A DNA stretch of 64,000 nt from positions 62,001 through 126,000 of the forward strand of contig RPFO01000115.1 in the NCBI GenBank assembly GCA_009746045.1. The letters run 5' to 3'. This document shows, piece after piece, positions 882-50,735 of this stretch (within the stretch, counting starts at the first letter, position 1; every line of letters starts with the position of its first letter). This stretch comes from Mesostigma viride. Taxonomy: Eukaryota; Streptophyta; Mesostigmatophyceae; Mesostigmatales; Mesostigmataceae. The notes under the pieces are model-generated. The model was not told where the DNA came from and made no database searches. It saw only the letters and a list, made by a program, of their open reading frames with translations. The position numbers and the translations under genes were made by a program.

Positions 882-2100
882 AGTTACGTTAAATAGTGCC
901 GGAACCTTTTGCCGCCTGAGGCAAATCGGTCCGTAACACTATTTTGCCCGGAATAACCACTTCCGAGCACCCAAGTTAATTCGGCCGAATTAACTTGGGT
1001 GCTCGGAAGTGGTTATTCCGGGCAAAATAGTGTTACGGACCGATTTGCCTCAGGCGGCAAAAGGTTCCGGCACTATTTAACGTAACTAAAACCTGGCCTC
1101 GTGGAGGGGGGACGAAGAGCCCGAGACATCCGCCTAGGCCGCTGAGCACGCACCACTAAATGCGCCGGAGCTGCCTCAGTGAGGATTCGAACCCCTGACC
1201 TCCAAGGTGCACAGGTTTTAGTTACGTTAAATAGTGCCGGAACCTTTTGCCGCCTGAGGCAAATCGGTCCGTAACACTATTTTGCCCGGAATAACCACTT
1301 CCGAGCACCCAAGTTAATTCGGCCGAATTAACTTGGGTGCTCGGAAGTGGTTATTCCGGGCAAAATAGTGTTACGGACCGATTTGCCTCAGGCGGCAAAA
1401 GGTTCCGTCACTATTTAACGTAACTAAAACCTGTGCACCTTGGAGGTCAGGGGTTCGAATCCTCACTGAGGCAGCTCCGGCGCATTTAGTGGTGCGTGCT
1501 CAGCGGCCTAGGCGGATGTCTCGGGCTCTTCGTCCCCCTCCACGAGGCCAGGTTTTAGTTACGTTAAATAGTGCCGGAACCTTTTGCCGCCTGAGGCAAA
1601 TCGGTCCGTAACACTATTTTGCCCGGAATAACCACTTCCGAGCACCCAAGTTAATTCGGCCGAATTAACTTGGGTGCTCGGAAGTGGTTATTCCGGGCAA
1701 AATAGTGTTACGGACCGATTTGCCTCAGGCGGCAAAAGGTTCCGGCACTATTTAACGTAACTAAAACCTGTGCACCTTGGAGGTCAGGGGTTCGAATCCT
1801 CACTGAGGCAGCTCCGGCGCATTTAGTGGTGCGTGCTCAGCGGCCTAGGCGGATGTCTCGGGCTCTTCGTCCCCCCTCCACGAGGCCAGGTTTTAGTTAC
1901 GTTAAATAGTGCCGGAACCTTTTGCCGCCTGAGGCAAATCGGTCCGTAACACTATTTTGCCCGGAATAACCACTTCCGAGCACCCAAGTTAATTCGGCCG
2001 AATTAACTTGGGTGCTCGGAAGTGGTTATTCCGGGCAAAATAGTGTTACGGACCGATTTGCCTCAGGCGGCAAAAGGTTCCGGCACTATTTAACGTAACT
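882..2100. mobile_element. Palindromic composite element, copy 1 (4 palindromes, 3 spacers)
   Basis: Four ~206-bp inverted repeats with no loop lie at 882-1087, 1220-1425, 1557-1762 and 1895-2100. Each begins AGTTACGTTAAATAGTGCC, is centred on CGGCCG and ends with the reverse complement. Spacers of 131-132 bp lie at 1088-1219 (minus orientation), 1426-1556 and 1763-1894 (both plus). The pentamer TGCAG at 877-881 recurs at 2101-2105, so the whole chain is one insertion with a 5-bp target duplication in the minisatellite. The second palindrome has one mismatch (TTCCGTCAC against TTCCGGCAC). No protein is encoded, so the element must be moved in trans. The superfamily is unknown. Confidence 0.9.
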
Positions 2101-5100
2101 TGCAGCCGCCCCAAGCGTGCGCGGTGTGTGTACATGTGAGTGCAGCTGCCCCAAGCGTGCGCGGTGTGTGTACATGTGTGTGCAGTTGCCCCTTGCGTGC
2201 GCGGTGGATGTACGTGTGTGTGCATGCCGGCAATTGCGTGCATGGTGTGTGTACGTGTGTGTGCAGCCGCCCCTTGCGTGCGCGGTGTGTGTACGTGTGT
2301 GTGCAGCCGCCCCTTGCGTGCGCGGTGTATGTACGTGTGTGTGCAGTTGCCCCTTGCGTGCGCGGTGGATGTACGTGTGTGTGCAGCTGCCCCAAGCGTG
2401 CGCGGTGTGTGTACATGTGTGTGCAGTTGCCCCTTGCGTGCGCGGTGGATGTACGTGTGTGTGCAGCCGCCCCTTGCGTGCGCGGTGTAGGTACGTGTGT
2501 GTGCAGCCGCCCCAAGCATGCGCGGTGTGTGTACGTGTGTGTGCACTCGCCCCTTGCGTGCGCGGTGGATGTACGTGTGTGTGCAGCCGCCCCTTGCGTG
2601 CATGGTGTATGTCCATGTGTGGGCAGTTGCCCCTTGCGTGCGCGGTGTATGTACATGTTTTTGCACTCGCCCCTTGCGTGCATGGTGTATGTATGTGTGT
2701 GTGCAGCCGCCCCTTGCGTGCGCGGTGGATGTACGTGTGTGTGCAGCCACCCCTTTCGTGCGCGGTGTATGTACATGTGAGTGCCGTCGCCCCAAGCGTG
2801 CATTTTGTGTGTAAGTGTGTGTGCAGCAGCCCCTTGCGTGCGCGGTGTATGTACGTGTGTGTGCAGCCGCCCCGTGGTTGCGCGGTGGATGTACATGTGA
2901 GTGGAGCCGGTCCTTGCGTGCGCGGTGTATGTACGTGTGTGTGCAGCCGCCCCTTGCGTGCGTGGTGTGTGTACATGTAAGTGCAGCCGCCCCTTGCGTG
3001 CGCGGTGTATGTACGTGTGTGTGCAGCCGCCCCAAGCGTGCGCGGTGTGTGTACATGTGAGTGCAGCTGCCCCAAGCGTGCGCGGTGTGTGTACATGTGT
3101 GTGCAGTTGCCCCTTGCGTGCGCGGTGGATGTACGTGTGTGTGCATGCCGGCAATTGCGTGCATGGTGTGTGTACGTGTGTGTGCAGCCGCCCCTTGCGT
3201 GCGCGGTGTGTGTACGTGTGTGTGCACTCGCCCCTTGCGTGCGCGGTGGATGTACATGTGTGTGCAGCCGCCCCTTGCGTGCATGGTGTATGTCCATGTG
3301 TGGGCAGTTGCCCCTTGCGTGCGCGGCGTATGTACATGTTTTTGCACTCGCCCCTTGCGTGCATGGTGTATGTATGTGTGTGTGCAGCCGCCCCTTGCGT
3401 GCGCGGTGGATGTACGTGTGTGTGCAGCCACCCCTTTCGTGCGCGGTGTATGTACATGTGAGTGCCGTCGCCCCACGCGTGCATTTTGTGTGTAAGTGTG
3501 TGTGCAGCAGCCCCTTGCGTGTGCGGTGTATGTACGTGTGTGTGCAGCCGGCCCTTGCGTGCGCGGTGTATGTACGTGTGTGTGCAGCCGCCCCTTGCGT
3601 GCATGGTGAGTGTAAGTGTGTGTGCAGCAGCCCCTTGCGTGCGCGGTGTAGGTACGTATGTGTGCAGCCGCCCCTTGCGTGCGCGGTGTGTGTACATGTG
3701 TGTGCAGTTGCCCCTTGCGTGCGCGGTGGATGTACGTGTGTGTGCAGCCGCCCCTTGCGTGCGCGGTGTAGGTACGTGTGTGTGCAGCCGCCCCAAGCGT
3801 GCGCGGTGTGTGTACGTGTGTGTGCACTCGCCCCTTGCGTGCGCGGTGGATGTACATGTGTGTGCAGCCGCCCCTTGCGTGCATGGTGTATGTCCATGTG
3901 TGGGCAGTTGCCCCTTGCGTGCGCGGTGTATGTACATGTTTTTGCACTCGCCCCTTGCGTGCATGGTGTATGTATGTGTGTGTGCAGCCGCCCCTTGCGT
4001 GCGCGGTGGATGTACGTGTGTGTGCAGCCACCCCTTTCGTGCGCGGTGTATGTACATGTGAGTGCCGTCGCCCCAAGCGTGCATTTTGTGTGTAAGTGTG
4101 TGTGCAGCAGCCCCTTGCGTGCGCGGTGTATGTACGTGTGTGTGCAGCCGCCCCGTGGTTGCGCGGTGGATGTACATGTGAGTGGAGCCGGTCCTTGCGT
4201 GCGCGGTGTATGTACGTGTGTGTGCAGCCGCCCCTTGCGTGCGTGGTGTGTGTACATGTAAGTGCAGCCGCCCCTTGCGTGCGCGGTGTATGTACGTGTG
4301 TGTGCAGCCGCCCCAAGCGTGCGCGGTGTGTGTACATGTGAGTGCAGCTGCCCCAAGCGTGCGCGGTGTGTGTACATGTGTGTGCAGTTGCCCCTTGCGT
4401 GCGCGGTGGATGTACGTGTGTGTGCATGCCGGCAATTGCGTGCATGGTGTGTGTACGTGTGTGCAGCCGCCCCTTGCGTGCGCGGTGTGTGTAGGTGTGT
4501 GTGCACTCGCCCCTTGCGTGCGCGGTGGATGTACATGTGTGTGCAGCCGCCCCTTGCGTGCATGGTGTATGTCCATGTGTGGGCAGTTGCCCCTTGCGTG
4601 CGCGGCGTATGTACATGTTTTTGCACTCGCCCCTTGCGTGCATGGTGTATGTATGTGTGTGTGCAGCCGCCCCTTGCGTGCGCGGTGGATGTACGTGTGT
4701 GTGCAGCCACCCCTTTCGTGCGCGGTGTATGTACATGTGAGTGCCGTCGCCCCAAGCGTGCATTTTGTGTGTAAGTGTGTGTGCAGCAGCCCCTTGCGTG
4801 TGCGGTGTATGTACGTGTGTGTGCAGCCGTCCCTTGCGTGCGCGGTGTATGTACGTGTGTGTGCAGCCGCCCCTTGCGTGCATGGTGAGTGTAAGTGTGT
4901 GTGCAGCCGCCCCTTGCGTGCGCGGTGTAGGTACGTATGTGTGCAGCCGCCCCTTGCGTGCGCGGTGTATGTACGTGTGTGTGCAGCCGCCCCAAGCGTG
5001 CGCGGTGTGTGTACATGTGAGTGCAGCTGCCCCAAGCGTGCGCGGTGTGTGTACATGTGTGTGCAGTTGCCCCTTGCGTGCGCGGTGGATGTACGTGTGT

Positions 5101-5721
5101 GTGCATGCCGGCAATTGCGTGCATGGTGTGTGTACGTGTGTGTGCAGCCGCCCCTTGCGTGCGCGGTGTGTGTACATGTGTGTGCAGCCGCCCCTTGCGT
5201 GCGCGGTGTAGGTACGTGTGTGTGCAGCCGCCCAAGCGTGCGCGGTGTGTGTACATGTGTGTGCAGTTGCCCCTTGCGTGCGCGGTGGATGTACGTGTGT
5301 GTGCATGCCGGCAATTGCGTGCATGGTGTGTGTACGTGTGTGTGCAGCAGCCCCTTGCGTGCGCGGTGTGTGTACGTGTGTGTGCACTCGCCCCTTGCGT
5401 GCGCGGTGGATGTACATGTGTGTGCAGCCGCCCCTTGCGTGCATGGTGTATGTCCATGTGTGGGCAGTTGCCCCTTGCGTGCGCGGTGTATGTACATGTG
5501 TGTGCACTCGCCCCTTGCGTGCATGGTGCATGTATGTATGTGTGTGTGCAGCCGCCCCTTGCGTGCGCGGTGGATGTACGTGTGTGTGCAGCCACCACTT
5601 TCGTGCGCGGTGTATGTACATGTGAGTGCCGTCGCCCCAAGCGTGCATTTTGTGTGTAAGTGTGTGTGCAGCAGCCCCTTGCGTGCGCGGTGTATGTACG
5701 TGTGTGTGCAGCCGCCCCGTG
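2101..5721. repeat. 40-bp minisatellite, block 2
   Basis: Continuation of the 40-bp array after composite copy 1. A higher-order period is visible: a run of about 1.2-1.3 kb that includes the GCCGGCAATTGCGTGCATGG variant recurs, for example around 2227, 3147, 4427, 5107 and 5307. This indicates that blocks of units were duplicated together. Confidence 0.93.
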
Positions 5722-6936
5722 AGTTAGGTTAAATAGTGCCGGAACCTTTTGCCGCCTGAGGCAAATCGGTCCGTCACACTATTTTGCCCGGAATAACCAC
5801 TTCCGAGCACCCAAGTTCATTCGGCCGAATGAACTTGGGTGCTCGGAAGTGGTTATTCCGGGCAAAATAGTGTGACGGACCGATTTGCCTCAGGCGGCAA
5901 AAGGTTCCGGCACTATTTAACCTAACTAAAACCTGGCCTCGTGGAGGGGACGAAGAGCCCGAGACATCCGCCTAGGCCGCTGAGCACGCACCACTAAATG
6001 CGCCGGAGCTGCCTCAGTGAGGATTCGAACCCCTGACCTCCAAGGTGCACGGGTTTTAGTTAGGTTAAATAGTGCCGGAACCTTTTGCCGCCTGAGGCAA
6101 ATCGGTCCGTCACACTATTTTGCCCGGAATAACCACTTCCGAGCACCCAAGTTCATTCGGCCGAATGAACTTGGGTGCTCGGAAGTGGTTATTCCGGGCA
6201 AAATAGTGTGACGGACCGATTTGCCTCAGGCGGCAAAAGGTTCCGGCACTATTTAACCTAACTAAAACCCGTGCACCTTGGAGGTCAGGGGTTCGAATCC
6301 TCACTGAGGCAGCTCCGGCGCATTTAGTGGTGCGTGCTCAGCGGCCTAGGCGGATGTCTCGGGCTCTTCGTCCCCCTCCACGAGGCCAGGTTTTAGTTAG
6401 GTTAAATAGTGCCGGAACCTTTTGCCGCCTGAGGCAAATCGGTCCGTCACACTATTTTGCCCGGAATAACCACTTCCGAGCACCCAAGTTAATTCGGCCG
6501 AATTAACTTGGGTGCTCGGAAGTGGTTATTCCGGGCAAAATAGTGTGACGGACCGATTTGCCTCAGGCGGCAAAAGGTTCCGGCACTATTTAACGTAACT
6601 AAAACCTGGCCTCGTGGAGGGGGACGAAGAGCCGAGACATCCGCCTAGGCCGCTGAGCACGCACCACTAAATGCGCCGGAGCTGCCTCAGTGAGGATTCG
6701 AACCCCTGACCTCCAAGGTGCACAGGTTTTAGTTACGTTAAATAGTGTCGGAACCTTTTGCCGCCTGAGGCAAATCGGTCCGTCACACTATTTTGCCCGG
6801 AATAACCACTTCCGAGCACCCAAGTTCATTCGGCCGAATGAACTTGGGTGCTCGGAAGTGGTTATTCCGGGCAAAATAGTGTGACGGACCGATTTGCCTC
6901 AGGCGGCAAAAGGTTCCGGCACTATTTAACCTAACT
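5722..6936. mobile_element. Palindromic composite element, copy 2 (4 palindromes, 3 spacers)
   Basis: Palindromes lie at 5722-5927, 6058-6263, 6395-6600 and 6731-6936, spacers at 5928-6057 (minus), 6264-6394 (plus) and 6601-6730 (minus). The 5-bp target duplication is CCGTG (5717-5721 and 6937-6941). This copy carries variant arms: AGTTAGGTT ends and a centre of GTTCATTCGGCCGAATGAAC in the first, second and fourth palindromes. The third and fourth have unlike outer ends (AGG/CGT and ACG/CCT), yet the two ends flanking any one spacer always match each other. Confidence 0.9.
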
Positions 6937-8505
6937 CCGTGGTTGCGCGGTGGATGTACATGTGAGTGGAGCCGGTCCTTGCGTGCGCGGTGTATGTACG
7001 TGTGTGTGCAGCCGCCCCTTGCGTGCGTGGTGTGTGTACATGTAAGTGCAGCCGCCCCTTGCGTGCGCGGTGTATGTACGTGTGTGTGCAGCCGTCCCTT
7101 GCGTGCGCGGTGTGTGTACGTGTGTGTGCAGCCGCCCCTCGCGTGCATGGTGAGTGTAAGTGTGTGTGCAGCAGCCCCTTGCGTGCGCAGTGTATGTACG
7201 TGTGTGTGCAGCCGCCCCTTGCGTGCGCGGTGTGTGTACTGTGTGTGCAGCCGGCCCTTGCGTGCGGTGTGTGTACGTGTGTGTGCAGCCGCCCCGTGGT
7301 TGCGCGGTGGATGTACATGTGTGTGCAGCCCCTTGCGTGCGCGGTGTATGTACGTGTGTGTGCAGCCGCCCCTTGCGTGCGGTGGTGTACATGTGTGCAG
7401 CCGCCCCTTGCGTGCGCGGTGTATGTACGTGTGTGTGCAGCCGTCCCTTGCGTGCGGTGTGTGTACGTGTGTGTGCAGCCGCCCCTTGCGTGCATGGTGT
7501 GTGTAAGTGTGTGTGCAGCAGCCCCTTGCGTGCATGGTGTGTACGTGTGTGTGCAGTTGCCCCTTGCGTGCGCGGTGTATGTACGTGTGTGTGCAGCCGG
7601 CCCTTGCGTGCGCGGTGTGTGTACATGTGAGTGCAGCCGGCCCTTGCGTGCGCGGTGGATGTACATGTGTGGGCAGTTGCCCCTTGCGTGCGCGGTGTAT
7701 GTACATGTGTTTGCACTCGCCCCTTGCGTGCGCGGTGGATGTACATGTGTGTGCAGCCGAACCTTGCGTGCATGGTGTGTGTACCTGTGCGTGAAGTCGC
7801 TCCTTGCGTGCATGGTGTGTGTACGTGTGTGTGCAGCCGCCCCTTGCGTGCGCGGTGTAGGTACGTGTGTGTGCAGCCGCCCCTTGCGTGCGCGGTGTAT
7901 GTACGTGTGTGTGCAGCCGGCCCTTGCGTGCATGGTGTGTGTACGTGTGTGTGCAGCCGGCCCTTGCGTGCGCGGTGGATGTACATGTGTGTGCAGTCGC
8001 CCCTTGCGTGCGCGGTGTAGGTACGTATGTGTGCAGCCGCCCCTTGCGTGCGCGGTGTATGTACGTGTGTGTGCAGCCGCCCCGTGGTTGCGCGGTGTAT
8101 GTACATGTGTGTGCAGTTGCCCCTTGCGTGCGCGGTGTATGTACGTGTGTGTGCAGCCGGCCCTTGCGTGCGCGGTGGATGTACATGTGAGTGCAGCCGG
8201 CCCTTGCGTGCATGGTGTGTGTACGTGTGTGTGCAGCCGCCCCTTGCGTGCATGGTGTATGTACATGTGAGTGCAGCCGGCCCTTGCGTGCATGGTGTGT
8301 GTACGTGTGTGTGCAGCCGCCCCTTGCGTGCGCGGTGTATGTACGTGTGTGCGCACTCGCCCCTTGCGTGCGCGGTGTATGTACGTGTGTGTGCAGTTGC
8401 CCCTTGCGTGCGCGGTGGATGTACGTGTGTGTGCAGCCGCCCCTTGCGTGCGCGGTGTGTGTACGTGTATGTGCAGCCGCCCCTTGCGTGCATGTACATG
8501 TGTGA
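6937..8505. repeat. 40-bp minisatellite, block 3
   Basis: Same 40-bp family as upstream but more degenerate, with several shortened units between 7230 and 7560. It ends near 8505 and passes into about 110 bp of AT-rich unique sequence in which I see no gene. Confidence 0.92.
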
Positions 8506-11446: not shown

Positions 11447-11748
11447 CTGCAATTGTAAATCCATGAAACAACATCACAGCACATTTCCCAACTCCAACGG
11501 CCGTTGGCACTCAACAATTATAAGATTTCCCAACTCCAACGGCCGTTGGCCCTTGGAAACTTTATATAAGTACATTTCTCAACTCCAACGGCCGTTGGCA
11601 CTCAACAATTATACGATTTTCCAGCTCCAACGGCCGTTGGCCTTATGAAACTTCAAACTGCATCAAGGAAGCTGTCCTCTGTAAAGTGTAACCAGAGACA
11701 AATTATAGAACTGCACTTGACCACCAGAAAGCAACTGTCTTTACTTAC
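11447..11748 (-). other. Intron with four tandem CCAACGGCCGTTGG units
   Basis: A 302-bp intron (donor GTAAGT 11743-11748, acceptor CAG 11447-11449). Between about 11490 and 11645 it consists of four ~45-bp units, each carrying CCAACGGCCGTTGG after a TTCCCAACT-like lead and separated by AT-rich linkers. Two alternating linker types (CACTCAACAATTATA and CC/TTATGAAAC-like) are visible, so a two-unit block was probably duplicated. Confidence 0.75.
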
Positions 11749-12504
11749 GTTATCGAGAAGAAATGCCCGTCGAACCACGTCCGATTGTGCCGATGGTCGA
11801 CTCGAGTCTTTGCCGGTTCTCCAATCCCGGTTCAGGTAGGCCACCAGTGCCTCCACCGTATTCAGGTTCCGATTGTCCTCCTGCATCTGCGCTCTTTTGA
11901 GGATGCTTTTGACCGTCCCCCCCTCCCCGTCCGACTCCCCCTTCCCATGTCCTGCACACGAGTAGTTCCACTCCAATGATTCCAAGTCGGGGTCGGCCTC
12001 GAGCAGGTCCGCAGCCATCGCCAACACATACCGGGATTGGAACTGCTCCTTACAGTTGTCGGACCAACTGATCCAGTTCCTCACCTCCACCCCCTCCTCC
12101 CTCAGCACGTTAAGGGTATTCTTCATCACGAACTCCAGGGTCTGGGCATTCCTCGGTACGTCCTTCCCCATGTAATCGTGCTTCACCCTTTTGATTTCCA
12201 GCGATACGGGATCACGGTACATCACGATCACCGGCATCAGGACGTAACTACTTGGGTACCAGTACTGCGCCTGCAACTGTTTCTGCAGGTGGTCCGAATA
12301 GTTCTCCGAGTAGTCCATCAGGACCACCACCGTTCCCAGCGGCATCACGTCAATGCACTCCTTGTAAGCGTGGTGCTGCCAGGCCCATGTATGGACGTGA
12401 ATGGCGAATTCCGGGAAGCGCGCCGTAATGAGTTCATGGAGCTCCGAGAGGGTTGACTTGATGAGTTTTTGCTGCAGGTTCATTTGCGGCGCCACATCCT
12501 CCTC
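11749..12504 (-). CDS. Transposase-like gene, exon 3 (putative DDE/D catalytic region)
   Basis: A 252-codon exon between acceptor TTGTGTTGCAG (ends 12505) and donor GTAAGT (11743-11748), phase 0 at both ends. Candidate acidic catalytic residues sit in three conserved-looking blocks: VVVLMDYSENY, WSDNCKEQFQSR and HGKGESDGEGGTVK. I recall a widespread, mostly unannotated family of repeat-associated eukaryotic proteins with a D-[FY]-x-E-N-Y, SD-x(4)-QF, HGK-x(2)-DG-x-GG-x-VK pattern. I infer an RNase H-fold DDE transposase or a domesticated derivative. An H-rich stretch (HVHTWAWQHH) precedes the first aspartate. The superfamily assignment is not certain. Confidence 0.65.
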
Positions 12505-12519
12505 CTGCAACACAACACA

Positions 12520-12619
12520 CCCGCGCACCATGGATTGACCGAAGAATGGAAGTCAGCAGCTGGGAATTTCCCAACGCCAACGGCCGTTGGAAGTATGAAA
12601 GTCTACATATATATATTCA
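12520..12619. repeat. 100-bp direct repeat of host intron, left copy (partner 23784-23883)
   Basis: From CCCGCGCACCATGG to ACATATATATATTCA the sequence matches 23784-23883 base for base as far as I can read, including one CCAACGGCCGTTGG palindrome. The right copy continues into AACGATGCAAATATACATGC and the splice donor; the left copy is cut there by retroelement 1. A pre-existing ~118-bp tandem duplication in the intron, with insertions into its first unit, explains the layout. Confidence 0.85.
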
Positions 12620-14114: not shown

Positions 14115-15614
14115 GTGACGGCCTCGACTCTTTGGGGGTATGTCTTGGAAGGATATCACGCCGGCTGCCGGCTGCCGTGGCATCTCCCGGCCGCCCGGCA
14201 GGAAGAGCTGCTTTCCCTGGACGAGCGGGTGGGTCAGGAGGTGGTCGAGTTCGTCACGGCGGTGGCTCGAGACGCACAGGTCTCGGTGCGGGCGGCCTAC
14301 CTCGCGGGCGGCGCCGACCTGGGCCTCATGTCCCCGCGGCAGCTTCGCCTCTTCTTGGACGCCCAGGCCCCGCCTCCCGGCCCGGTTGCCAGTGGGGGCT
14401 TTCTCATCACCTCCCTCAGCCTGGCGCAGGCCGCCATGCTGCGTGTGGAGTTCGGGGCCCCCATCGCGGTTCAGGGCGGCCAGGCCATCTTGGTGGACTC
14501 GGCCGGGCGCGCCCAGCCCCTAACCGCGGGGACGCCTGTTTCTGCCTTCCTCCACGACATCCTGGAGTTGGCAGGCATCCCGCACGAATGGCACCCCGCG
14601 GCTGACCAACCGGTCGGCATCCTCTCGCGCGCCCAGATTGCCGCTCTCCCGGGTTGCTGGGAGGCCGGCTGGGACCCGCCCCCCCCTCATGTCCGGTCCC
14701 TTCTGGAGGGGGACGACCCCGAGTCGGGCTCCTGTGCCATCTGCCTTGAGCCCTTCCGGCCGGGGGATGGCTTGTGTCGCCTGCCCGCGTGCGGCCACAC
14801 ATTCCATCAAGCGTGCATCGCGCGCAGCTTGCTCCACTCCGTGCCGCGCTGCCCGTTGTGCCGGGCTGTTGTGCCGCCCCCTGGGACTGCGCTTCCTCTC
14901 GGCCCGCCCCCGGTCTCGCTGGGTCCCCTGCCGGGTCCCCACCGGGCCCCGGGGCCAGCTGCCTCCCCGACCCCTCGGCCGCCGCCCCCGGCCTCGTTGC
15001 CGGGGCCTGGGGTGGTCGCGGGCGCGCTGGCGAGTCCCCCTGGGAGGGGCGCCGGCGTTCTCGATCCCCCTCCGCTGGGGGTCTCCCCGGTGGGCACTGC
15101 CTCCTCCGTGGCCCCGGCGGGCCTGCCGGGCGCTGGTCGGGTCGTGGTGCGCGCGCCTGCCGGCCCGGCTGGGGAGACGCCGCAGGCCCCACGTCCTGCC
15201 TTTGCTGGCGCCGCTCCCCGCCACTCAGCGCCCGCCGACGGCCTTCACCGGTGTGCCGTGCTGCTTCCCACGGGGTCCCCGTGTGCGGGTGTGTTCCACA
15301 ACCGTAACCTCCTCTGCCAGCACCTTCGCGCTGTGCACCCCGATCTCGGCGCGGCGGATCTGCAGGCCATGAGCTGTTACCGGTGCCCGGAAGCTCACTG
15401 CCAGCGGGTGTACTCCATTCACGGGCGCGCTCAGCACGCGCGCGCCTGTGTTGCTCAACGGCCCCTCAACCGGCCAGCAGTCCCGGCCCCCTCCCCCCTC
15501 CCGCCTCGGCTCCCACCGGCTCCCAGCCCCCGCCGCCCGACTACTCGGCCAGTTGGCGTTGGCTTGACACGGTTCCCTGGGATGCATGCGCCATCAACCC
15601 GACGTCTACCCTGA
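14115..15614 (+). CDS. Retroelement 1 ORF1, RING-H2 and C2H2-like fingers
   Basis: A 499-codon open frame. At about residues 206-248 it carries a RING-H2 finger: CAIC, ACGHTFHQACI and RCPLCR, with the expected spacing for an E3-type RING. At about residues 379-445 are two C2H2-like modules (CAGVFHNRNLLCQHLRAVH; CPEAHCQRVYSIHGRAQH). The region between is Pro/Gly-rich linker. The 3' end overlaps the reverse-transcriptase frame (open from 15383) by about 230 bp in the -1 frame, and the same arrangement exists in copy 2. This suggests an ORF1/ORF2 overlap rather than decay. The annotated start may be inside a longer protein joined to the PHD part. Confidence 0.7.
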   Translation: MTASTLWGYVLEGYHAGCRLPWHLPAARQEELLSLDERVGQEVVEFVTAVARDAQVSVRAAYLAGGADLGLMSPRQLRLFLDAQAPPPGPVASGGFLITSLSLAQAAMLRVEFGAPIAVQGGQAILVDSAGRAQPLTAGTPVSAFLHDILELAGIPHEWHPAADQPVGILSRAQIAALPGCWEAGWDPPPPHVRSLLEGDDPESGSCAICLEPFRPGDGLCRLPACGHTFHQACIARSLLHSVPRCPLCRAVVPPPGTALPLGPPPVSLGPLPGPHRAPGPAASPTPRPPPPASLPGPGVVAGALASPPGRGAGVLDPPPLGVSPVGTASSVAPAGLPGAGRVVVRAPAGPAGETPQAPRPAFAGAAPRHSAPADGLHRCAVLLPTGSPCAGVFHNRNLLCQHLRAVHPDLGAADLQAMSCYRCPEAHCQRVYSIHGRAQHARACVAQRPLNRPAVPAPSPLPPRLPPAPSPRRPTTRPVGVGLTRFPGMHAPSTRRLP

Positions 15615-16296
15615 CCGACCTCCCCCACCGCGCGCGTAGCCTTTTCGCGCAATGTGCAATCGTTTCTCTCCGGCGCATGCACGCCGCTCCGGACGACCCG
15701 CTGGGCTTTAAACTGCACATGGTGACCCCCCGCCTGCTCCTCACCCCTCTCGGGCGTGGTGTGCGCGGCCTCCAGGGTGCGGTTATTGCCCGTTGCCGAC
15801 GCTTTCTGCAGGGGGACTGGGAGGGGCTGTTTGGCGTGCCGCCCCCGCGCACGGCCCGGCTGTCGGGGGAGGTCAACTTCGAGCGGGTGGCCGCCGACGT
15901 CATCCGCCTCGTCCGCGAGGGGCAGCTCAGCCGGGCCATGACCCGCTTGGAAATGGCCAAGCTCGCCCCCGCCAATGCGGCTACCCTGGCGGCCTTGGAG
16001 GCTCTTCACCCTGCGGAGCCCGGATTCCAGCTGCCCGTGCCGGACCCCCTGCCGGCCCCCCTCCGGCTGGACCGCGACTGCTTCCTGGAGGTGATGCGTG
16101 CGGTCCCGCGGGCTTCCTCTACCGGGCCGTCGGGCTGGCGCTACGAGCACTTGGAGGTCCTGGTGGGGCATGGGGGCGAGGACATTCTCTTTGACACCCT
16201 CATTGACCTGGCGGCTGGTCGCGTTCCTCCCGCTGCGCGCGAGTGGTTAGCGGGCGCTCGCCTCCTCGCTCTGCTCAAGGGTGTCTTGCCCCCCCC
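15383..16296 (+). CDS. Retroelement 1 ORF2, 5' part (upstream of and into the reverse transcriptase)
   Basis: The frame includes DYSASWRWLDTVPWDACAIN and runs through a helical region to STGPSGWRYEHLEVL and LAGARLLALLKG, a pattern typical of the N-terminal fingers of non-LTR reverse transcriptases. It is joined to the next part by a -1 frame change at a run of eight cytosines (16289-16296). The same run of eight is present in copy 2. Confidence 0.65.
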
Positions 16297-17118
16297 GAGG
16301 GCAAGGTGCGCCCGATCGCCTGCGGTGAGGTGCTCCGCAAGCTCGTGGGCAAAGTGATCTGCCGCCAAAAGGCGCCCGAGCTCCGTGCCTTTTTCTGCCC
16401 GCCCCTCGCAGCGGGTGAGACCTCGGTGGCGGCCCAGCTGGGGGTGACGACTCCAGGCGGGGCGGATATCCTCATCCATTCGGTGCAGGCCTACCTCGAG
16501 GCCCACCCCACCCACGCTGTCGTCAAGGTCGACTGCCACAACGCGTTCAACAGTCTGTCCCGCGCCAGCATGTTTGCGGCCGTCATGGAGTCCTTCGAGG
16601 ACTTGTACGCTTGGACAGCCGTGTGCTACGGCCAGCCCGGCCAACTGGTTCACATCATGGAGGACGGCACTCGCGGCGGCCTGCTGTCGCGGTCGGGCAC
16701 CCAGCAAGGGGACCCCCTGGGACCCCTGTACTTTGCCGCCCCCCTCCAGGGTTGCCTCCAAGCGGTCCATGCTGCCCACCCGGCGGTCGCTATTCAGGCC
16801 TACTTGGATGATATCTACCTTCTGGGCCCTGTGCCGGACACCACCGCGGCTCTGCTGGCACTGCAGACCGCGGTGGCCGACATCAACCTCCAGTTGACCC
16901 TTGCCAAGTGCGCGGTGTACTCGCCCCAAGGTGATTGCTCCGGCTTTCCGCCCCAGCTCTTGGGCCGGGACGAGCGCCTCCATGGGTTGGATGTCCTCGG
17001 CGTTCCGGTTGGCGACCCCGCGTTTGTCATCGATGCTCTGCGGGCCGCCCTCGAGGCACGCACTGAGGTACTGCCCTTGATTGCGCGCCTTCATGACTCG
17101 CAGACCAAGGGTCTGCTT
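16297..17118 (+). CDS. Retroelement 1 ORF2, reverse transcriptase core
   Basis: Recognisable reverse-transcriptase motifs in order: GKVRPIACGEVLRKLVGK (fingers), VVKVDCHNAFNSLSR (motif A, catalytic Asp), SGTQQGDPLGPLYF (motif B) and AYLDDIYLLG (motif C, the catalytic YLDD box). The frame then runs to the insertion of composite copy 3, where AGTTACGTTAAATAG introduces a stop. It resumes in the same frame after the target duplication at 18001. This is the enzyme for target-primed reverse transcription. Confidence 0.85.
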
Positions 17119-18000
17119 AGTTACGTTAAATAGTGCCGGAACCTTTTGCCGCCTGAGGCAAATCGGTCCGTAACACTATTTTGCCCGGAATAACCACTTC
17201 CGAGCACCCAAGTTAATTCGGCCGAATTAACTTGGGTGCTCGGAAGTGGTTATTCCGGGCAAAATAGTGTTACGGACCGATTTGCCTCAGGCGGCAAAAG
17301 GTTCCGGCACTATTTAACGTAACTAAAACCTGGCCTCGTGGAGGGGGGACGAAGAGCCCGAGACATCCGCCTAGGCCGCTGAGCACGCACCACTAAATGC
17401 GCCGGAGCTGCCTCAGTGAGGATTCGAACCCCTGACCTCCAAGGTGCACAGGTTTTAGTTACGTTAAATAGTGCCGGAACCTTTTGCCGCCTGAGGCAAA
17501 TCGGTCCGTAACACTATTTTGCCCGGAATAACCACTTCCGAGCACCCAAGTTAATTCGGCCGAATTAACTTGGGTGCTCGGAAGTGGTTATTCCGGGCAA
17601 AATAGTGTTACGGACCGATTTGCCTCAGGCGGCAAAAGGTTCCGGCACTATTTAACGTAACTAAAACCTGTGCACCTTGGAGGTCAGGGGTTCGAATCCT
17701 CACTGAGGCAGCTCCGGCGCATTTAGTGGTGCGTGCTCAGCGGCCTAGGCGGATGTCTCGGGCTCTTCGTCCCCCCTCCACGAGGCCAGGTTTTAGTTAC
17801 GTTAAATAGTGCCGGAACCTTTTGCCGCCTGAGGCAAATCGGTCCGTCACACTATTTTGCCCGGAATAACCACTTCCGAGCACCCAAGTTAATTCGGCCG
17901 AATTAACTTGGGTGCTCGGAAGTGGTTATTCCGGGCAAAATAGTGTGACGGACCGATTTGCCTCAGGCGGCAAAAGGTTCCGGCACTATTTAACGTAACT
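17119..18000. mobile_element. Palindromic composite element, copy 3 (3 palindromes, 2 spacers)
   Basis: Palindromes lie at 17119-17324, 17457-17662 and 17795-18000; spacers at 17325-17456 (minus) and 17663-17794 (plus). The target duplication is TGCTT (17114-17118 and 18001-18005). The orthologous position in retroelement copy 2 (near 21762) is uninterrupted and holds a single TGCTT (AAGCA on the plus strand). This proves that the composite is an insertion and that it is younger than the retroelement duplication. Confidence 0.95.
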
Positions 18001-19339
18001 TGCTTCTGTGGTTTTGCGCTCACCCTCGCGTCGTTCACTGGCTCAGGGGCGCTCTTCCGTCTCAGGTCCGGCTGGCCGCCGAGGGCCACGACGAACGCAT
18101 CCAGTCGGCCTTGGCGCAGCTGGTCCCGGGCCCCGACCTCCCGCCACATGCTATTCGCATTGCCTCCCTGCCTGCACGGATGGGTGGCTGCGGTCTGACT
18201 CGTGCCGCCCGGCTGGCCCCAGCAGCATTTTTGGGCTCCGACGCTCAGTCGTGGGCGGAAAGCTGCCGGCTCCTGCCCCTTTTGGCAACGGCAGCGCCTG
18301 ACCTCCTGGACCCCAGCAGCCCTTTGCCCTTCGTCACCGCCATCCAGGAGGCCTATGCTGAGATCCAGCAGGCCTGTTCTCCCGTCCGTGCCGCTCAGGC
18401 GGTACAGCGCCACCTCCCTCGCGGCACTCCCTCGGTCGCCTCCGTTCAATCTCCCGCCGCATTCCCTGCTCGCGTCATCGATAAACACCAGAAAACCTAC
18501 GCGGGTATTCTGCACACGGCTGATTGGATTGCTCTTTTCGCGGACCTCAACGCCCAGGGACGTGCGTGGCTGTTCTCGCTTTCCTTGCGGAGTGTGGGCT
18601 CGGCGTACCTTCGTGCTCTTCCCATGGCCCCCCCATTCGCCTTGGCTCCCAGCCACTACTCGGTGGCGCTCCGGCACCAGCTATTTGCCCCGCAGCCTCT
18701 TGTTCCGGCCGGGCGGCCTTGTGGTAGCTGTGGGCAGCCGCTGGATCCCACGGGGACTCACTACCTTGCCTGCATGGGGGGCCAACAGAATCAGAATTGG
18801 TATTTGTATTTGCACACTGTCCTCCTGACGGTGGTGCTCGCCATGATTCGGTCGGTTTTCCCCCACGCGAACATCCGGTCCGAGGATGCGGATGGCGCTG
18901 CCTTCTATTCCCCCAACCACCGGCCTGACATCGTGGTGCTGGACTTTGAGGGGGTGGCCGGCATCTGCTTATTGACGTTTCGGTGGCGCGGCCCTTGGCT
19001 CTTAGCCACGTGGCTGGGGCCTCCCTCACGGCAGGTTACACGGCGGACCGGGCGGAGCGGGCCAAGCTCCTGGCCTACGGCGACGTCGGGCACCATCGTG
19101 TGGTGCCCTTTGTCCTGGAGGAGTTTGGGGCCATGGGGCCCCTGACCTCCGCCTTCTTCAAGGAGTGTTGCCGGCTCCGGGAGGATCGGCTGGACCTGGA
19201 GGGCCAGCGGGCCCCATGGTCGGCGCGGACCTGGACGTCATATTGGCGTCAGCGCTTGTCGGTGGCGCTGACTCGGGCCATGGCTGACATCATGCTCCGC
19301 CGTACGCGGGCTGATTTTGCGGTGCAGCAGGGCTATTAG
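18001..19339 (+). CDS. Retroelement 1 ORF2, C-terminal part with PD-(D/E)xK-like endonuclease (frameshifted)
   Basis: Continues the reverse-transcriptase frame after the nested insertion. A Cys/His knuckle (CGSCGQPLDPTGTHYLAC) precedes a restriction-like endonuclease signature: RPDIVVLDFEG, then a downstream LLIDVSVARP and a lysine in ERAKLLAY. In this copy the G run at about 18949-18953 has five Gs against six in copy 2, so the frame is lost just after RPDIVVLDFEG and resumes in another frame to the TAG at 19337-19339. The domain order reverse transcriptase, Cys/His knuckle, REL matches REL-type non-LTR elements. Confidence 0.75.
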
Positions 19340-19472
19340 GTTCCTCCCGTTAGGCGTTTCCATTGGTCTTATCGTAGTATAGAGCTTTGACATGGCTCTG
19401 TATATAGGTTTATAGCTGGGCGTTTGCTTTGGTTTGAGTGATTTCACTCTGCTGTAAGTAATTATATTTTTA
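19340..19472 (+). other. Retroelement 1 3' UTR
   Basis: About 130 bp from the stop to the 3' terminus (ends GTAATTATATTTTT). It is identical in design to the 3' end of copy 2 except for the TIR insertion in that copy. There is no poly-A tail; the T-rich end directly abuts the target duplication. Confidence 0.75.
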
Positions 19473-20350: not shown

Positions 20351-20422
20351 AAACCTATATACAGAGCCATGTCAAAGCTCTATACTACGATAAGACCAAT
20401 GGAAACGCCTAACGGGAGGAAC

Positions 20423-20959
20423 CTAATAGCCCTGCTGCACCGCAAAATCAGCCCGCGTACGGCGGAGCATGATGTCAGCCATGGCCCGAGTCAGCGCCAC
20501 CGACAAGCGCTGACGCCAATATGACGTCCAGGTCCGCGCCGACCATGGGGCCCGCTGGCCCTCCAGGTCCAGCCGATCCTCCCGGAGCCGGCAACACTCC
20601 TTGAAGAAGGCGGAGGTCAGGGGCCCCATGGCCCCAAACTCCTCCAGGACAAAGGGCACCACACGATGGTGCCCGACGTCGCCGTAGGCCAGGAGCTTGG
20701 CCCGCTCCGCCCGGTCCGCCGTGTAACCTGCCGTGAGGGAGGCCCCAGCCACGTGGCTAAGAGCCAAGGGCCGCGCCACCGAAACGTCAATAAGCAGATG
20801 CCGGCCACCCCCCTCAAAGTCCAGCACCACGATGTCAGGCCGGTGGTTGGGGGAATAGAAGGCAGCGCCATCCGCATCCTCGGACCGGATGTTCGCGTGG
20901 GGGAAAACCGACCGAATCATGGCGAGCACCACCGTCAGGAGGACAGTGTGCAAATACAA
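20423..20959 (-). CDS. Retroelement 2 ORF2, intact endonuclease domain
   Basis: Same protein segment as 18830-19339 but with the frame intact across the G6 run. RPDIVVLDFEGG is followed in frame by LLIDVSVARP and ERAKLLAYGDVG, so the PD...D...K arrangement of a restriction-like endonuclease is complete here. It is separated from the reverse-transcriptase frame by a one-base deletion (C5 against G6 in copy 1) at about 20987. Confidence 0.75.
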   Translation of the reverse strand: MYLHTVLLTVVLAMIRSVFPHANIRSEDADGAAFYSPNHRPDIVVLDFEGGGRHLLIDVSVARPLALSHVAGASLTAGYTADRAERAKLLAYGDVGHHRVVPFVLEEFGAMGPLTSAFFKECCRLREDRLDLEGQRAPWSARTWTSYWRQRLSVALTRAMADIMLRRTRADFAVQQGY

Positions 20960-22559
20960 ATACCAATTCTGATTCTGTTGGCCCCCATGCAGGCAAGGTA
21001 GTGAGTCCCCGTGGGATCCAGCGGCTGCCCACAGCTACCACAAGGCCGCCCGGCCGGAACAAGAGGCTGCGGGGCAAATAGCTGGTGCCGGAGCGCCACC
21101 GAGTAGTGGCTGGGAGCCAAGGCGAATGGGGGGGCCATGGGAAGAGCACGAAGGTACGCCGAGCCCACACTCCGCAAGGAAAGCGAGAACAGCCACGCAC
21201 GTCCCTGGGCGTTGAGGTCCGCGAAAAGAGCAATCCAATCAGCCGTGTGCAGAATACCCGCGTAGGTTTTCTGGTGTTTATCGATGACGCGAGCAGGGAA
21301 TGCGGCGGGAGATTGAACGGAGGCGACCGAGGGAGTGCCGCGAGGGAGGTGGCGCTGTACCGCCTGAGCGGCACGGACGGGAGAACAGGCCTGCTGGATC
21401 TCAGCATAGGCCTCCTGGATGGCGGTGACGAAGGGCAAAGGGCTGCTGGGGTCCAGGAGGTCAGGCGCTGCCGTTGCCAAAAGGGGCAGGAGCCGGCAGC
21501 TTTCCGCCCACGACTGAGCGACGGAGCCCAAAAATGCTGCTGGGGCCAGCCGGGCGGCACGAGTCAGACCGCAGCCACCCATCCGTGCAGGCAGGGAGGC
21601 AATGCGAATAGCATGTGGCGGGAGGTCGGGGCCCGGGACCAGCTGCGCCAAGGCCGACTGGATGCGTTCGTCGTGGCCCTCGGCGGCCAGCCGGACCTGA
21701 GACGGAAGAGCGCCCCTGAGCCAGTGAACGACGCGAGGGTGAGCGCAAAACCACAGAAGCAGACCCTTGGTCTGCGAATCATGAAGGCGCGCAATCAAGG
21801 GCAGTACCTCAGTGCGTGCCTCGAGGGCGGCCCGCAGAGCATCGATGACAAACGCGGGGTCGCCAACCGGAACGCCGAGGACATCCAACCCATGGAGGCG
21901 CTCGTCCCGGCCCAAGAGCTGGGGCGGAAAGCCGGAGCAATCACCTTGGGGCGAGTACACCGCGCACTTGGCAAGGGTCAACTGGAGGTTGATGTCGGCC
22001 ACCGCGGTCTGCAGTGCCAGCAGAGCCGCGGTGGTGTCCGGCACAGGGCCCAGAAGGTAGATATCATCCAAGTAGGCCTGAATAGCGACCGCCGGGTGGG
22101 CAGCATGGACCGCTTGGAGGCAACCCTGGAGGGGGGCGGCAAAGTACAGGGGTCCCAGGGGGTCCCCTTGCTGGGTGCCCGACCGCGACAGCAGGCCGCC
22201 GCGAGTGCCGTCCTCCATGATGTGAACCAGTTGGCCGGGCTGGCCGTAGCACACGGCTGTCCAAGCGTACAAGTCCTCGAAGGACTCCATGACGGCCGCA
22301 AACATGCTGGCGCGGGACAGACTGTTGAACGCGTTGTGGCAGTCGACCTTGACGACAGCGTGGGTGGGGTGGGCCTCGAGGTAGGCCTGCACCGAATGGA
22401 TGAGGATATCCGCCCCGCCTGGAGTCGTCACCCCCAGCTGGGCCGCCACCGAGGTCTCACCCGCTGCGAGGGGCGGGCAGAAAAAGGCACGGAGCTCGGG
22501 CGCCTTTTGGCGGCAGATCACTTTGCCCACGAGCTTGCGGAGCACCTCACCGCAGGCGA
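20960..22559 (-). CDS. Retroelement 2 ORF2, reverse transcriptase (uninterrupted)
   Basis: Encodes the same GKVRPIACGE, VDCHNAFNSL, SGTQQGDPLGP and AYLDDIYL motifs as copy 1, and runs straight through the site where copy 1 carries composite element 3 (SQTKGLLLWFCAH). It is the best single reference for the reverse-transcriptase and linker region. The upstream boundary is the C8/G8 frame change at about 22579-22586, shared with copy 1. Confidence 0.85.
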
Positions 22560-22586
22560 TCGGGCGCACCTTGCCCTCGGGGGGGG

Positions 22587-23770
22587 CAAGACACCCTTGA
22601 GCAGAGCGAGGAGGCGAGCGCCCGCTAACCACTCGCGCGCAGCGGGAGGAACGCGACCAGCCGCCAGGTCAATGAGGGTGTCAAAGAGAATGTCCTCGCC
22701 CCCATGCCCCACCAGGACCTCCAAGTGCTCGTAGCGCCAGCCCGACGGCCCGGTAGAGGAAGCCCGCGGGACCGCACGCATCACCTCCAGGAAGCAGTCG
22801 CGGTCCAGCCGGAGGGGGGCCGGCAGGGGGTCCGGCACGGGCAGCTGGAATCCGGGCTCCGCAGGGTGAAGAGCCTCCAAGGCCGCCAGGGTAGCCGCAT
22901 TGGCGGGGGCGAGCTTGGCCATTTCCAAGCGGGTCATGGCCCGGCTGAGCTGCCCCTCGCGGACGAGGCGGATGACGTCGGCGGCCACCCGCTCGAAGTT
23001 GACCTCCCCCGACAGCCGGGCCGTGCGCGGGGGCGGCACGCCAAACAGCCCCTCCCAGTCCCCCTGCAGAAAGCGTCGGCAACGGGCAATAACCGCACCC
23101 TGGAGGCCGCGCACACCACGCCCGAGAGGGGTGAGGAGCAGGCGGGGGTCACCATGTGCAGTTTAAAGCCCAGCGGGTCGTCCGGAGCGGCGTGCATGCG
23201 CCGGAGAGAAACGATTGCACATTGCGCGAAAAGGCTACGCGCGCGGTGGGGGAGGTCGGTCAGGGTAGACGTCGGGTTGATGGCGCATGCATCCCAGGGA
23301 ACCGTGTCAAGCCAACGCCAACTGGCCGAGTAGTCGGGCGGCGGGGGCTGGGAGCCGGTGGGAGCCGAGGCGGGAGGGGGGAGGGGGCCGGGACTGCTGG
23401 CCGGTTGAGGGGCCGTTGAGCAACACAGGCGCGCGCGTGCTGAGCGCGCCCGTGAATGGAGTACACCCGCTGGCAGTGAGCTTCCGGGCACCGGTAACAG
23501 CTCATGGCCTGCAGATCCGCCCCGCCGAGATCGGGGTGCACAGCGCGAAGGTGCTGGCAGAGGAGGTTACGGTTGTGGAACACACCCGCACACGGGGACC
23601 CCGTGGGAAGCAGCACGGCACACCGGTGAAGGCCGTCGGCGGGCGCTGAGTGGCGGGGAGCGGCGCCAGCAAAGGCAGGACGTGGGGCCTGCGGCGTCTC
23701 CCCAGCCGGGCCGGCAGGCGCGCGCACCACGACCCGACCAGCGCCCGGCAGGCCCGCCGGGGCCACTCTT
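22587..23770 (-). CDS. Retroelement 2, truncated ORF1 3' end and ORF2 5' part
   Basis: From the 5' truncation point the reading starts within the ORF1 linker and includes the C2H2-like pair (CAGVFHNRNLLCQH), then the ORF1/ORF2 overlap. A one-base loss in a C run near 23147 (five Cs against six at 15726-15731 of copy 1) breaks the ORF2 frame after HMVTP. PHD and RING fingers are missing because of truncation, so this copy is not autonomous. Confidence 0.7.
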
Positions 23771-28910: not shown

Positions 28911-29139
28911 TTAATAACGTCAACGTCCTTGCTGCTTCCTTTGGTGCTTGATCTGCCTTGGTGTCGTGCCTCCGTTTGGTGGCCGGTGGTCACGGGATGC
29001 ACAAACGGGAACGCTATCAGTTTTCGTCCACCCGCCGCCGCTGCCCCCCAGGCCGGCCCCCTGTAAAAACCAAGGAAAAAGAAAAAAAGGTACGAATGGC
29101 AGCCCCACTTATTCATTTGTTGGAATCAATGCATTATTG
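28911..29139. repeat. Higher-order repeat block between minisatellite arrays (copy A)
   Basis: About 229 bp beginning TTAATAACGTCAACGTCC and ending AATCAATGCATTATTG. Near-identical blocks lie at 29540-29768, 30829-31016 and 31135-31335, and earlier ones sit within 27410-28060. Array plus block forms a higher-order unit that has been copied several times with different numbers of minisatellite units. Confidence 0.85.
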
Positions 29140-29539: not shown

Positions 29540-29768
29540 TTAATAACGTCAACGTCCTTGCTGCTTCCTTTGGTGCTTGATCTGCCTTGGTGTCGTGCCT
29601 CCGTTTGGTGGCCGGTGGTCACGGGATGCACAAACGGGAACGCTATCAGTTTTCGTCCACCCGCCGCCGCTGCCCCCCAGGCCGGCCCCCTGTAAAAACC
29701 AAGGAAAAAGAAAAAAAGGTACGAATGGCAGCCCCACTTATTCATTTGTTGGAATCAATGCATTATTG
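29540..29768. repeat. Higher-order repeat block (copy B)
   Basis: Same 229-bp block as at 28911-29139, ending in the AATCAATGCATTATTG that precedes the next array. Confidence 0.85.
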
Positions 29769-49425: not shown

Positions 49426-49515
49426 CGTGCTTGTACGCACAACCACCCGCGTTCCCCTCCGCCGGCGCCCCCGCCGCCGGGCTCTCCGCCGCCACCGGTG
49501 TTGCCCCCTCCCGCC
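49426..49515 (+). CDS. Five-exon gene, exon 2 (5' part, before the insertion)
   Basis: Starts after acceptor GCGTGTCACAG in phase 0. Encodes RACTHNHPRS, then a proline tract (PPPAPPPPGSPPPPVLPPPA). It is interrupted by composite element copy 4 directly after the CCGCC target; the frame resumes exactly at 50741. Confidence 0.6.
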
Positions 49516-50735
49516 AGTTACGTTAAATAGTGCCGGAACCTTTTGCCGCCTGAGGCAAATCGGTCCGTAACACTATTTTGCCCGGAATAACCACTTCCGA
49601 GCACCCAAGTTAATTCGGCCGAATTAACTTGGGTGCTCGGAAGTGGTTATTCCGGGCAAAATAGTGTTACGGACCGATTTGCCTCAGGCGGCAAAAGGTT
49701 CCGGCACTATTTAACGTAACTAAAACCTGGCCTCGTGGAGGGGGACGAAGAGCCCGAGACATCCGCCTAGGCCGCTGAGCACGCACCACTAAATGCGCCG
49801 GAGCTGCCTCAGTGAGGATTCGAACCCCTGACCTCCAAGGTGCACGGGTTTTAGTTACGTTAAATAGTGCCGGAACCTTTTGCCGCCTGAGGCAAATCGG
49901 TCCGTAACACTATTTTGCCCGGAATAACCACTTCCGAGCACCCAAGTTAATTCGGCCGAATTAACTTGGGTGCTCGGAAGTGGTTATTCCGGGCAAAATA
50001 GTGTGACGGACCGATTTGCCTCGAGTGGGCAAAAGGTTCTGGCACTATTTAACGTAACTAAAACCTGGCCTCGTGGAGGGGGGACGAAGAGCCCGAGACA
50101 TCCGCCTAGGCCGCTGAGCACGCACCACTAAATGCGCCGGAGCTGCCTCAGTGAGGATTCGAACCCCTGACCTCCAAGGTGCACAGGTTTTAGTTACGTT
50201 AAATAGTGCAGGAACCTTTTGCCGCCTGAGGCAAATCGGTCCGTAACACTATTTTGCCCGGAATAACCACTTCCGAGCACCCAAGTTAATTCGGCCGAAT
50301 TAACTTGGGTGCTCGGAAGTGGTTATTCCGGGCAAAATAGTGTTACGGACCGATTTGCCTCAGGCGGCAAAAGGTTCCTGCACTATTTAACGTAACTAAA
50401 ACCTGTGCACCTTGGAGGTCAGGGGTTCGAATCCTCACTGAGGCAGCTCCGGCGCATTTAGTGGTGCGTGCTCAGCGGCCTAGGCGGATGTCTCGGGCTC
50501 TTCGTCCCCCCTCCACGAGGCCAGGTTTTAGTTACGTTAAATAGTGCCAGAACCTTTTGCCCACTGAGGCAAATCGGTCCGTCACACTATTTTGCCCGGA
50601 ATAACCACTTCCGAGCACCCAAGTTAATTCGGCCGAATTAACTTGGGTGCTCGGAAGTGGTTATTCCGGGCAAAATAGTGTGACGGACCGATTTGCCTCA
50701 GTGGGCAAAAGGTTCTGGCACTATTTAACGTAACT
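49516..50735. mobile_element. Palindromic composite element, copy 4 (4 palindromes, 3 spacers), inside a coding exon
   Basis: Palindromes lie at 49516-49721, 49853-50059 (207 bp, imperfect), 50192-50397 and 50530-50735; spacers at 49722-49852 (minus), 50060-50191 (minus) and 50398-50529 (plus). The target duplication is CCGCC (49511-49515 and 50736-50740). The second palindrome has unlike arms: its right arm (GTGTGACG, GTGGGCAAAAGGTTCTGGC) matches the fourth palindrome while its left arm is the common type. The third has the paired change GTGCAGG/CCTGCAC, and the fourth GTGCCAGAACC/GGTTCTGGCAC. Confidence 0.92.

Follow-up and report, generated by a model that had tools for sequence, protein, structure and literature searches.

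Palindrome-spacer chains of Mesostigma viride inserted as whole units: probable copies of a non-autonomous element with shared terminal palindromes

Four chains of loopless palindromes

The 64-kb stretch of Mesostigma viride DNA analysed here (the window) contains four chains, A, B, C and D, in which long palindromes (P) alternate with short spacers (S), and all statements about this element rest on these four copies (4 per 64 kb). Together the chains comprise 15 palindromes (4, 4, 3 and 4) and 11 spacers (3, 3, 2 and 3). The original prediction, made from the letters alone, had described four loci with three or four near-perfect loopless palindromes of about 206 bp each, separated by spacers of 130–132 bp in variable orientation, and all four loci were found as described (Table 1). 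The palindromes are 206 bp long in 14 of 15 cases and 207 bp in the remaining one, the arms pair without mismatch in 11 of them, and alignment revealed an unpaired central insert in none of the 15. The imperfect palindromes are A2, B3 and B4, with the mismatches given in Table 1, and D2, in which four substitutions and one inserted base separate the arms. For palindrome A1 taken as a single strand, DNA parameters predict a hairpin with 101 base pairs and a tip of 4 bases, at −135.7 kcal/mol (z −35).

The spacers are 130–132 bp long and near-identical in sequence, differing in the length of one C run, at one T/C site and by one base that is missing in B3. Defining a spacer as (+) when its box B lies at the left, the orientations are −++ in chain A, −+− in B, −+ in C and −−+ in D, so that both orientations are present in each of the four chains; spacer B2 is + by alignment, despite one altered base. 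The spacers are bounded by an 8-bp terminal inverted repeat (TIR), AAAACCTG..CAGGTTTT, with imperfect similarity reaching out to about 20 bp and one base changed in three of the 11 spacers (B1, B2 and D1); because of this repeat most internal palindromes extend to 222 bp. Ungapped identity of a chain to its own reverse complement is 99.5% over the 882 bp of chain C, 92.5% for A, 78.8% for B and 59.5% for D. Successive spacers lie in opposite orientation at five of the seven junctions and in the same orientation (head-to-tail) at the other two. The outermost spacer face lacks box B in seven of eight cases (binomial 0.035, for four chains that may be related by descent), which we take only as a hint of chain symmetry.

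All eight chain ends read AGTT..AACT (AG..CT) and match AGTTACGTTAAATAG with at most one mismatch, which means that terminal inverted repeats are present. When up to three mismatches are allowed, AGTTACGTTAAATAG occurs at 30 sites in the window against a chance expectation of 0.58, and all 30 are ends of the 15 palindromes; the window therefore holds, at this threshold, neither a solo palindrome nor any other element with such ends. The chains had also been said to encode nothing. Consistent with this, no reading frame of at least 150 amino acids is confined to any of the four chains, and a finer look at chain A alone found stop-to-stop frames of at most 80 amino acids inside it. In being short, non-coding and mostly inverted repeat, the chains show traits of miniature inverted-repeat transposable elements (MITEs) and foldback elements.

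Table 1. Coordinates of the four chains, their parts and target-site duplications, and the empty-site paralogues, in positions of the window
Feature	Position	Strand or orientation
Chain A: P-S(-)-P-S(+)-P-S(+)-P, within 40-bp minisatellite	882..2100	
Chain A 5′ target-site duplication TGCAG	877..881	
Chain A 3′ target-site duplication TGCAG	2101..2105	
Palindrome A1, perfect	882..1087	
Spacer A1, 132 bp	1088..1219	-
Palindrome A2, 1 mismatch	1220..1425	
Spacer A2, 131 bp	1426..1556	+
Palindrome A3, perfect	1557..1762	
Spacer A3, 132 bp	1763..1894	+
Palindrome A4, perfect	1895..2100	
Chain B: P-S(-)-P-S(+)-P-S(-)-P, within minisatellite of chain A's kind	5722..6936	
Chain B 5′ target-site duplication CCGTG	5717..5721	
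Chain B 3′ target-site duplication CCGTG	6937..6941	
Palindrome B1, perfect	5722..5927	
Spacer B1, 130 bp	5928..6057	-
Palindrome B2, perfect	6058..6263	
Spacer B2, 131 bp	6264..6394	+
Palindrome B3, 1 mismatch	6395..6600	
Spacer B3, 130 bp	6601..6730	-
Palindrome B4, 2 mismatches	6731..6936	
Chain C: P-S(-)-P-S(+)-P, 99.5% palindromic overall, within LINE reading frame	17119..18000	
Chain C 5′ target-site duplication TGCTT	17114..17118	
Chain C 3′ target-site duplication TGCTT	18001..18005	
Palindrome C1, perfect	17119..17324	
Spacer C1, 132 bp	17325..17456	-
Palindrome C2, perfect	17457..17662	
Spacer C2, 132 bp	17663..17794	+
Palindrome C3, perfect	17795..18000	
Chain D: P-S(-)-P-S(-)-P-S(+)-P	49516..50735	
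Chain D 5′ target-site duplication CCGCC	49511..49515	
Chain D 3′ target-site duplication CCGCC	50736..50740	
Palindrome D1, perfect	49516..49721	
Spacer D1, 131 bp	49722..49852	-
Palindrome D2, hybrid (left arm consensus, right arm D4-type), 207 bp	49853..50059	
Spacer D2, 132 bp	50060..50191	-
Palindrome D3, perfect, 1 mirrored substitution per arm	50192..50397	
Spacer D3, 132 bp	50398..50529	+
Palindrome D4, perfect, 4 mirrored substitutions per arm	50530..50735	
Second LINE copy without chain (chain C empty site, single TGCTT within 21697-21816)	20351..23555	-
Minisatellite paralogue equal to joined chain B flanks, single CCGTG	351..470; also 2817-2936, 4098-4217	+

Each chain was inserted as one unit

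A 5-bp direct repeat, different for each chain (Table 1), lies directly outside the whole chain in all four cases, whereas such a repeat is found around no sub-chain and around none of the 15 palindromes taken singly; internal palindromes are always bordered by GTTTT and AAAAC. As a control we drew 200,000 intervals at random in the window, matched in length to the chains, and 1803 of them (0.9%) had a matching 5-bp flank. Given this rate, four duplications in four chains are far beyond chance.

Empty-site paralogues exist for three of the four chains, two of these in minisatellite. Chain C breaks the reading frame of a long interspersed nuclear element (LINE), and its joined flanks align with the second LINE copy, which lies in the opposite orientation, at 99.81% over 3207 columns (3 mismatched and 3 gapped). 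For chain B, the joined flanks match 120 of 120 positions at three places of the same minisatellite, and those of chain A match 116 of 120 in a paralogous minisatellite unit. Taken together, the chains were inserted whole, bounded by complete palindromes, with 5-bp target-site duplications, which upholds the predicted movement of each chain as a single unit.

These counts bear on two other explanations. In the first, P alone is a foldback MITE, two copies of which mobilised a box-B-containing stretch once, and recombination then made the chains. A single P does possess both ends for transposition and would fold into the long hairpin described above; however, the window has no solo P and none of the 15 palindromes of the four chains has a duplication of its own, and we give this explanation only a slim chance. 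The second is an artefact of assembly or library preparation. Long palindromes are notorious for the trouble that they cause in sequencing, but four sites with four different duplications, the empty sites and the chain-specific variants make such an artefact hardly credible.

Palindrome arms are homogenised and parts are exchanged

We compared all 30 arms (15 palindromes with two arms each) from tip to centre, taking out the single inserted base of D2 before counting. Per 103 sites, the mean difference is 0.53 between the arms of the same palindrome (15 pairs), 1.31 between arms of different palindromes of one chain (84 pairs) and 2.22 between chains (336 pairs). When arms were re-paired at random within chains, a total as low as the observed one was reached in 0.6% of 20,000 shuffles. 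For seven of the eight substituted sites (6, 19, 20, 33, 34, 54 and 97), at least one palindrome has the change in mirrored form in its two arms; the exceptions are site 18, which changed twice and to different letters, and the single inserted base. The mirrored substitutions indicate that mutations have been copied from arm to arm and that the arms are thereby homogenised, the outcome that gene conversion, hairpin copying or the repair of hairpins or cruciforms would have.

Parts have also been reshuffled. Palindrome D2 is a hybrid of two arm types (Table 1), and at site 6, near the tip, B3 and B4 each combine two variants, ordered one way in B3 and the other way in B4. The spacer variant C7 stands beside arms with A54 (D1) and with C54 (B1, B2), and T7 stands beside both too; since C7/T7 and site 54 occur in all four combinations, parts have been exchanged between units and chains. 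Compared with each other in inverted orientation over 103 bases, the outermost arms are identical in chains A and B, have one difference in C and four in D. Because the outer palindromes of D differ at four sites per arm, they did not derive from one shared template at insertion, unless they were changed later.

Arm homogenisation is also what a rolling-hairpin replicon would produce. Here, parvovirus-like terminal palindromes would self-prime copying and yield dimers and trimers with one shared palindrome per junction, and the whole multimer would be inserted by a DDE-type integrase with a 5-bp duplication. In agreement with such a replicon, a shared palindrome is present at every junction and complete palindromes at both ends, arm changes are mirrored, chain C is dimer-like (882 bp, 99.5% palindromic), five of seven junctions are in opposite orientation and seven of eight outermost faces are alike, in few and possibly related chains. 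In parvovirus concatemers, too, adjacent units have one terminal palindrome in common. However, the two head-to-tail junctions are not given by simple hairpin replication, no replication protein is known and recombination alone accounts for all orientations; moreover, unlike parvovirus concatemers, the chains carry no viral gene and are inserted in the chromosome with a fixed 5-bp duplication. Such a hairpin-primed replicative step is not known in TIR elements, and we regard the replicon as improbable. If it were true, it would be a chromosomal element that multiplies by self-primed terminal palindromes before integrating as a multimer.

Box B, the tRNA question and the retrotransposon alternative

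The spacers had been called tRNA-like, and the case for this is weak. The exact box-B motif GGTTCGAATCC is present in all 11 spacers, and no exact match to GGTTCGANTCC lies outside the spacers in the window; the motif is plausibly an internal RNA polymerase III (Pol III)-type promoter. Neither ARAGORN nor Rfam reported a tRNA at threshold. Rfam gave a weak tRNA match that runs from the outer part of P into the beginning of S, scoring 18.3 and 16.2 bits where the gathering threshold is 29; two narrower searches did not list it. ARAGORN placed a structure over P and S with a score of 37. Since 32 of 500 shuffles reached the same score, we do not accept it as proof, and we likewise reject a tRNA gene in or across the spacer as proven. 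Spacer folding is no stronger than that of shuffles, 12 of 200 of which fold as well. A tRNA origin of the spacer beyond the box-B motif is thus not shown.

Two classes of element can be set aside because the duplications are fixed at 5 bp. Against a tRNA-derived short interspersed nuclear element, box B alone is exact, there is no tRNA at threshold and the chains end in P without a tail; and a Helitron or other HUH element makes no target-site duplication, whereas 5-bp duplications flank four of four chains.

A closer parallel comes from terminal-repeat retrotransposons in miniature (TRIMs) of the kind with a Pol III promoter, such as Cassandra and TRIMp3/Helenus. P would be the long terminal repeat (LTR) and S the internal domain, unequal recombination would build a tandem array of LTR-internal-LTR-internal-LTR, and an integrase would leave the 5-bp duplication. 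The outline agrees: as far as the available portions of the literature go, TRIM arrays are short and non-coding repeat-spacer chains with full repeats at the ends and a Pol III-type motif, Cassandra arrays tend to about three LTRs (PMC7215508), and Helenus carries a tRNA-like sequence in its LTR and makes 5-bp duplications in fungi and plants (PMC10886601). The size of the chains, box B in every spacer and the identical outer arms of two of the four chains fit as well. Where a primer-binding site would be expected, after the 5′ repeat, S(-) has TGG six bases past P. Several features speak against this assignment. The termini are AG..CT instead of TG..CA at all eight chain ends; no polypurine tract precedes P in either orientation of spacer A1, where the longest purine run in the last 30 bases is 4, and the 11 spacers are nearly identical in this region; both spacer orientations occur in each chain; and the repeats are palindromic, while the accessible parts of PMC7215508 and PMC10886601 describe no perfectly palindromic LTR. 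The outer repeats of chain D differ at four sites per arm, which tells against an LTR origin of the usual kind, with both ends copied from one template; conversion at a later time might, however, also have led to such differences. All in all we consider a TRIM array unlikely.

A probable non-autonomous element with shared terminal palindromes

We favour, and consider probable, an explanation in which all four chains derive from a single non-autonomous TIR (class II) element. Adjacent units of this element would have a terminal palindrome in common, its insertion as double-stranded DNA would be the work of an enzyme acting in trans, and recombination or hairpin copying would have changed the spacers. 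The fixed 5-bp stagger, the inverted ends and the empty sites together would point to double-stranded DNA as the substrate of a DDE-type transposase or integrase. We place the element within class II with moderate confidence and give no family. The chains are also a case in which structure alone does not decide between the LTR and TIR classes for the terminal repeats. The proposal also answers the claim of the original prediction that no known design fits, which we do not sustain: the observations are explained by a non-autonomous element of TIR or foldback type in which terminal palindromes are shared, and tandem TRIM arrays have the same layout.

The steps that we infer are as follows. A transposase or integrase supplied in trans would recognise AGTTACGTTAAATAG, make a 5-bp staggered cut in the target and insert a double-stranded DNA rather than an RNA intermediate. 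The unit would be S between two terminal P, with one P in common to adjacent units. Because P is palindromic, any two P are direct and inverted repeats at once, and recombination between them can therefore alter the number and orientation of spacers while valid ends are kept. Such recombination or, as an alternative route to the same chains, hairpin-primed copying at P may add, remove or flip spacers, and any product chain would still have at either side an intact P with an end that the enzyme can use. The identity of the two arms of each P would be maintained by gene conversion and by the repair of hairpins or cruciforms.

Several points weigh against this proposal. The window yielded no transposase, no autonomous relative and no fifth chain. 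A 5-bp duplication with AG..CT termini fits no plant class II superfamily among those whose duplication lengths and termini are given in the available part of PMC10741241 (hAT 8 bp, Mutator 7–12, CACTA 3, PIF 3, Tc1 2, Sola 4, and Ginger 4–6 with TG..CA). TRIM arrays are likewise compatible with 5-bp duplications and with about three repeats per chain, and identical outer arms in A and B are predicted by an LTR origin too. No empty-site paralogue of chain D is present in the window, and the empty sites of A and B, being paralogous minisatellite units, are weaker than that of C and are expected anywhere in a minisatellite. Finally, assembly could affect the number of units per chain.

Comparison with known systems and searches for relatives

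Galileo and FB are foldback or long-TIR elements that are non-autonomous. Tetris, also of this type, resembles the chains in its long inverted repeats, modular rearranged forms and target-site duplications and in that no transposase has been found for it, as far as the accessible text goes, but has duplications of 8–10 bp against 5 bp here (PMC4079207). Unlike in foldback and long-TIR elements, the terminal repeats of the chains are themselves complete loopless palindromes, common to adjacent units. The coral CMITE is another non-autonomous TIR element found in tandem, with highly similar sequence in between, and its authors put the arrays down, probably, to replication slippage; its duplications are TTAA, however, and the available parts of the paper report neither movement of an array as a unit nor shared ends (PMC2872659).

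Polintons and Polinton-like viruses, and Ginger2/TDD integrases, combine long TIRs with duplications of about 4–6 bp (PMC12220804, PMC8547959, PMC2836005, as far as available). The 5-bp duplications and 103-bp arms of the chains fall within the published Polinton-type range of 5–6-bp duplications with long TIRs, and by analogy a Polinton-type integrase is a possible source of the enzyme. Unlike the chains, those elements are coding and the ends of Ginger are TGTNR, and no integrase gene with AGTTACGTTAAATAG-type ends was seen.

Searches for relatives began from parts of the chains. Exact patterns for the palindrome centre, spacer and arm had no match in viral contigs, and the end motif had two, in unrelated context. 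A 15-base end pattern matched at least 120 stretches in genome contigs; its prokaryotic matches were judged to be chance from the length of the pattern. A 546-base piece of chain A gave no usable match to phages and plasmids, and translated P-S-P gave no candidate among predicted proteins. Two frames in the window look transposase-like by eye (11653-12531 and 24035-25072), and one transposase-like frame agrees in all 99 residues compared with a protein listed for the dinoflagellate Prorocentrum lima, which is at odds with a green-alga host. We rejected the frame at 11653-12531 as a partner of the chains: it has no Pfam match and one homologue, and no chain-like ends lie elsewhere in the window.

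A literature search by titles and abstract openings, among the matches listed and mostly in non-subscription texts, found no description of chained terminal palindromes moving as a unit, and the main texts of the two Mesostigma genome papers contain no word starting with 'palindrom'. The arrangement of the chains resembles known mobile DNA, and a description as such was not found in the literature searched.

Long loopless palindromes are generally unstable and are lost from genomes. Here all 15 keep an uninterrupted centre and near-identical arms, in units that are young by their near-identical empty sites, and the chains are a natural system in which to study how perfect palindromes are tolerated and copied in a nucleus. 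They could likewise show whether a transposon with palindromic ends, each of them direct and inverted repeat at once, is thereby able to form multimers and yet move whole.

Other features of the window

Two LINE copies with an RVT_1 domain lie at 15319-19411 and 20351-23555 in opposite orientation and are 99.8% identical over 3.2 kb; on this identity the LINE duplication is very recent. The best named relatives of the reverse transcriptase frame of the uninterrupted copy are in records labelled Cymbomonas tetramitiformis and in others labelled Mesvir1, which we take to be Mesostigma viride. In the Mesvir1 gene model P0008, one block agrees with the LINE in all 129 of its residues and another, gapped, in 80%; a second Mesvir1 model, P0011, matches it at about 68–73%, and the protein P0006 has two matching blocks, with identities of 99.6% and 100%. 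By such matches the host would probably be Mesostigma viride or a close relative, the Prorocentrum match being the one conflict. Frames upstream of the LINE look PHD- and RING-like by eye. A fragment at 47848-48363 matches the beta subunit of bacterial-type RNA polymerase (rpoB) and is probably nuclear DNA of plastid origin.

Exact copies of a 14-bp palindrome, CCAACGGCCGTTGG, number 57 within 10605-58600, and with up to two mismatches there are 74 (0.57 expected). Often an AAA block lies within a few bases of it, on either side (45 and 11 of 57, by a loose pattern), and the sites are spread over unrelated tandem repeats (periods of about 45, 62 and 208) and stretches between gene-like frames; CCAACGGCCGTTGG is possibly an intron, processing or repeat-seeding signal. 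Very long mini- and microsatellites with units of 40, 30, 29 and 6 bp occupy 8-8491, 28061-30828, 31337-35381 and 50989-54398, and several of them have long open frames in more than one phase.

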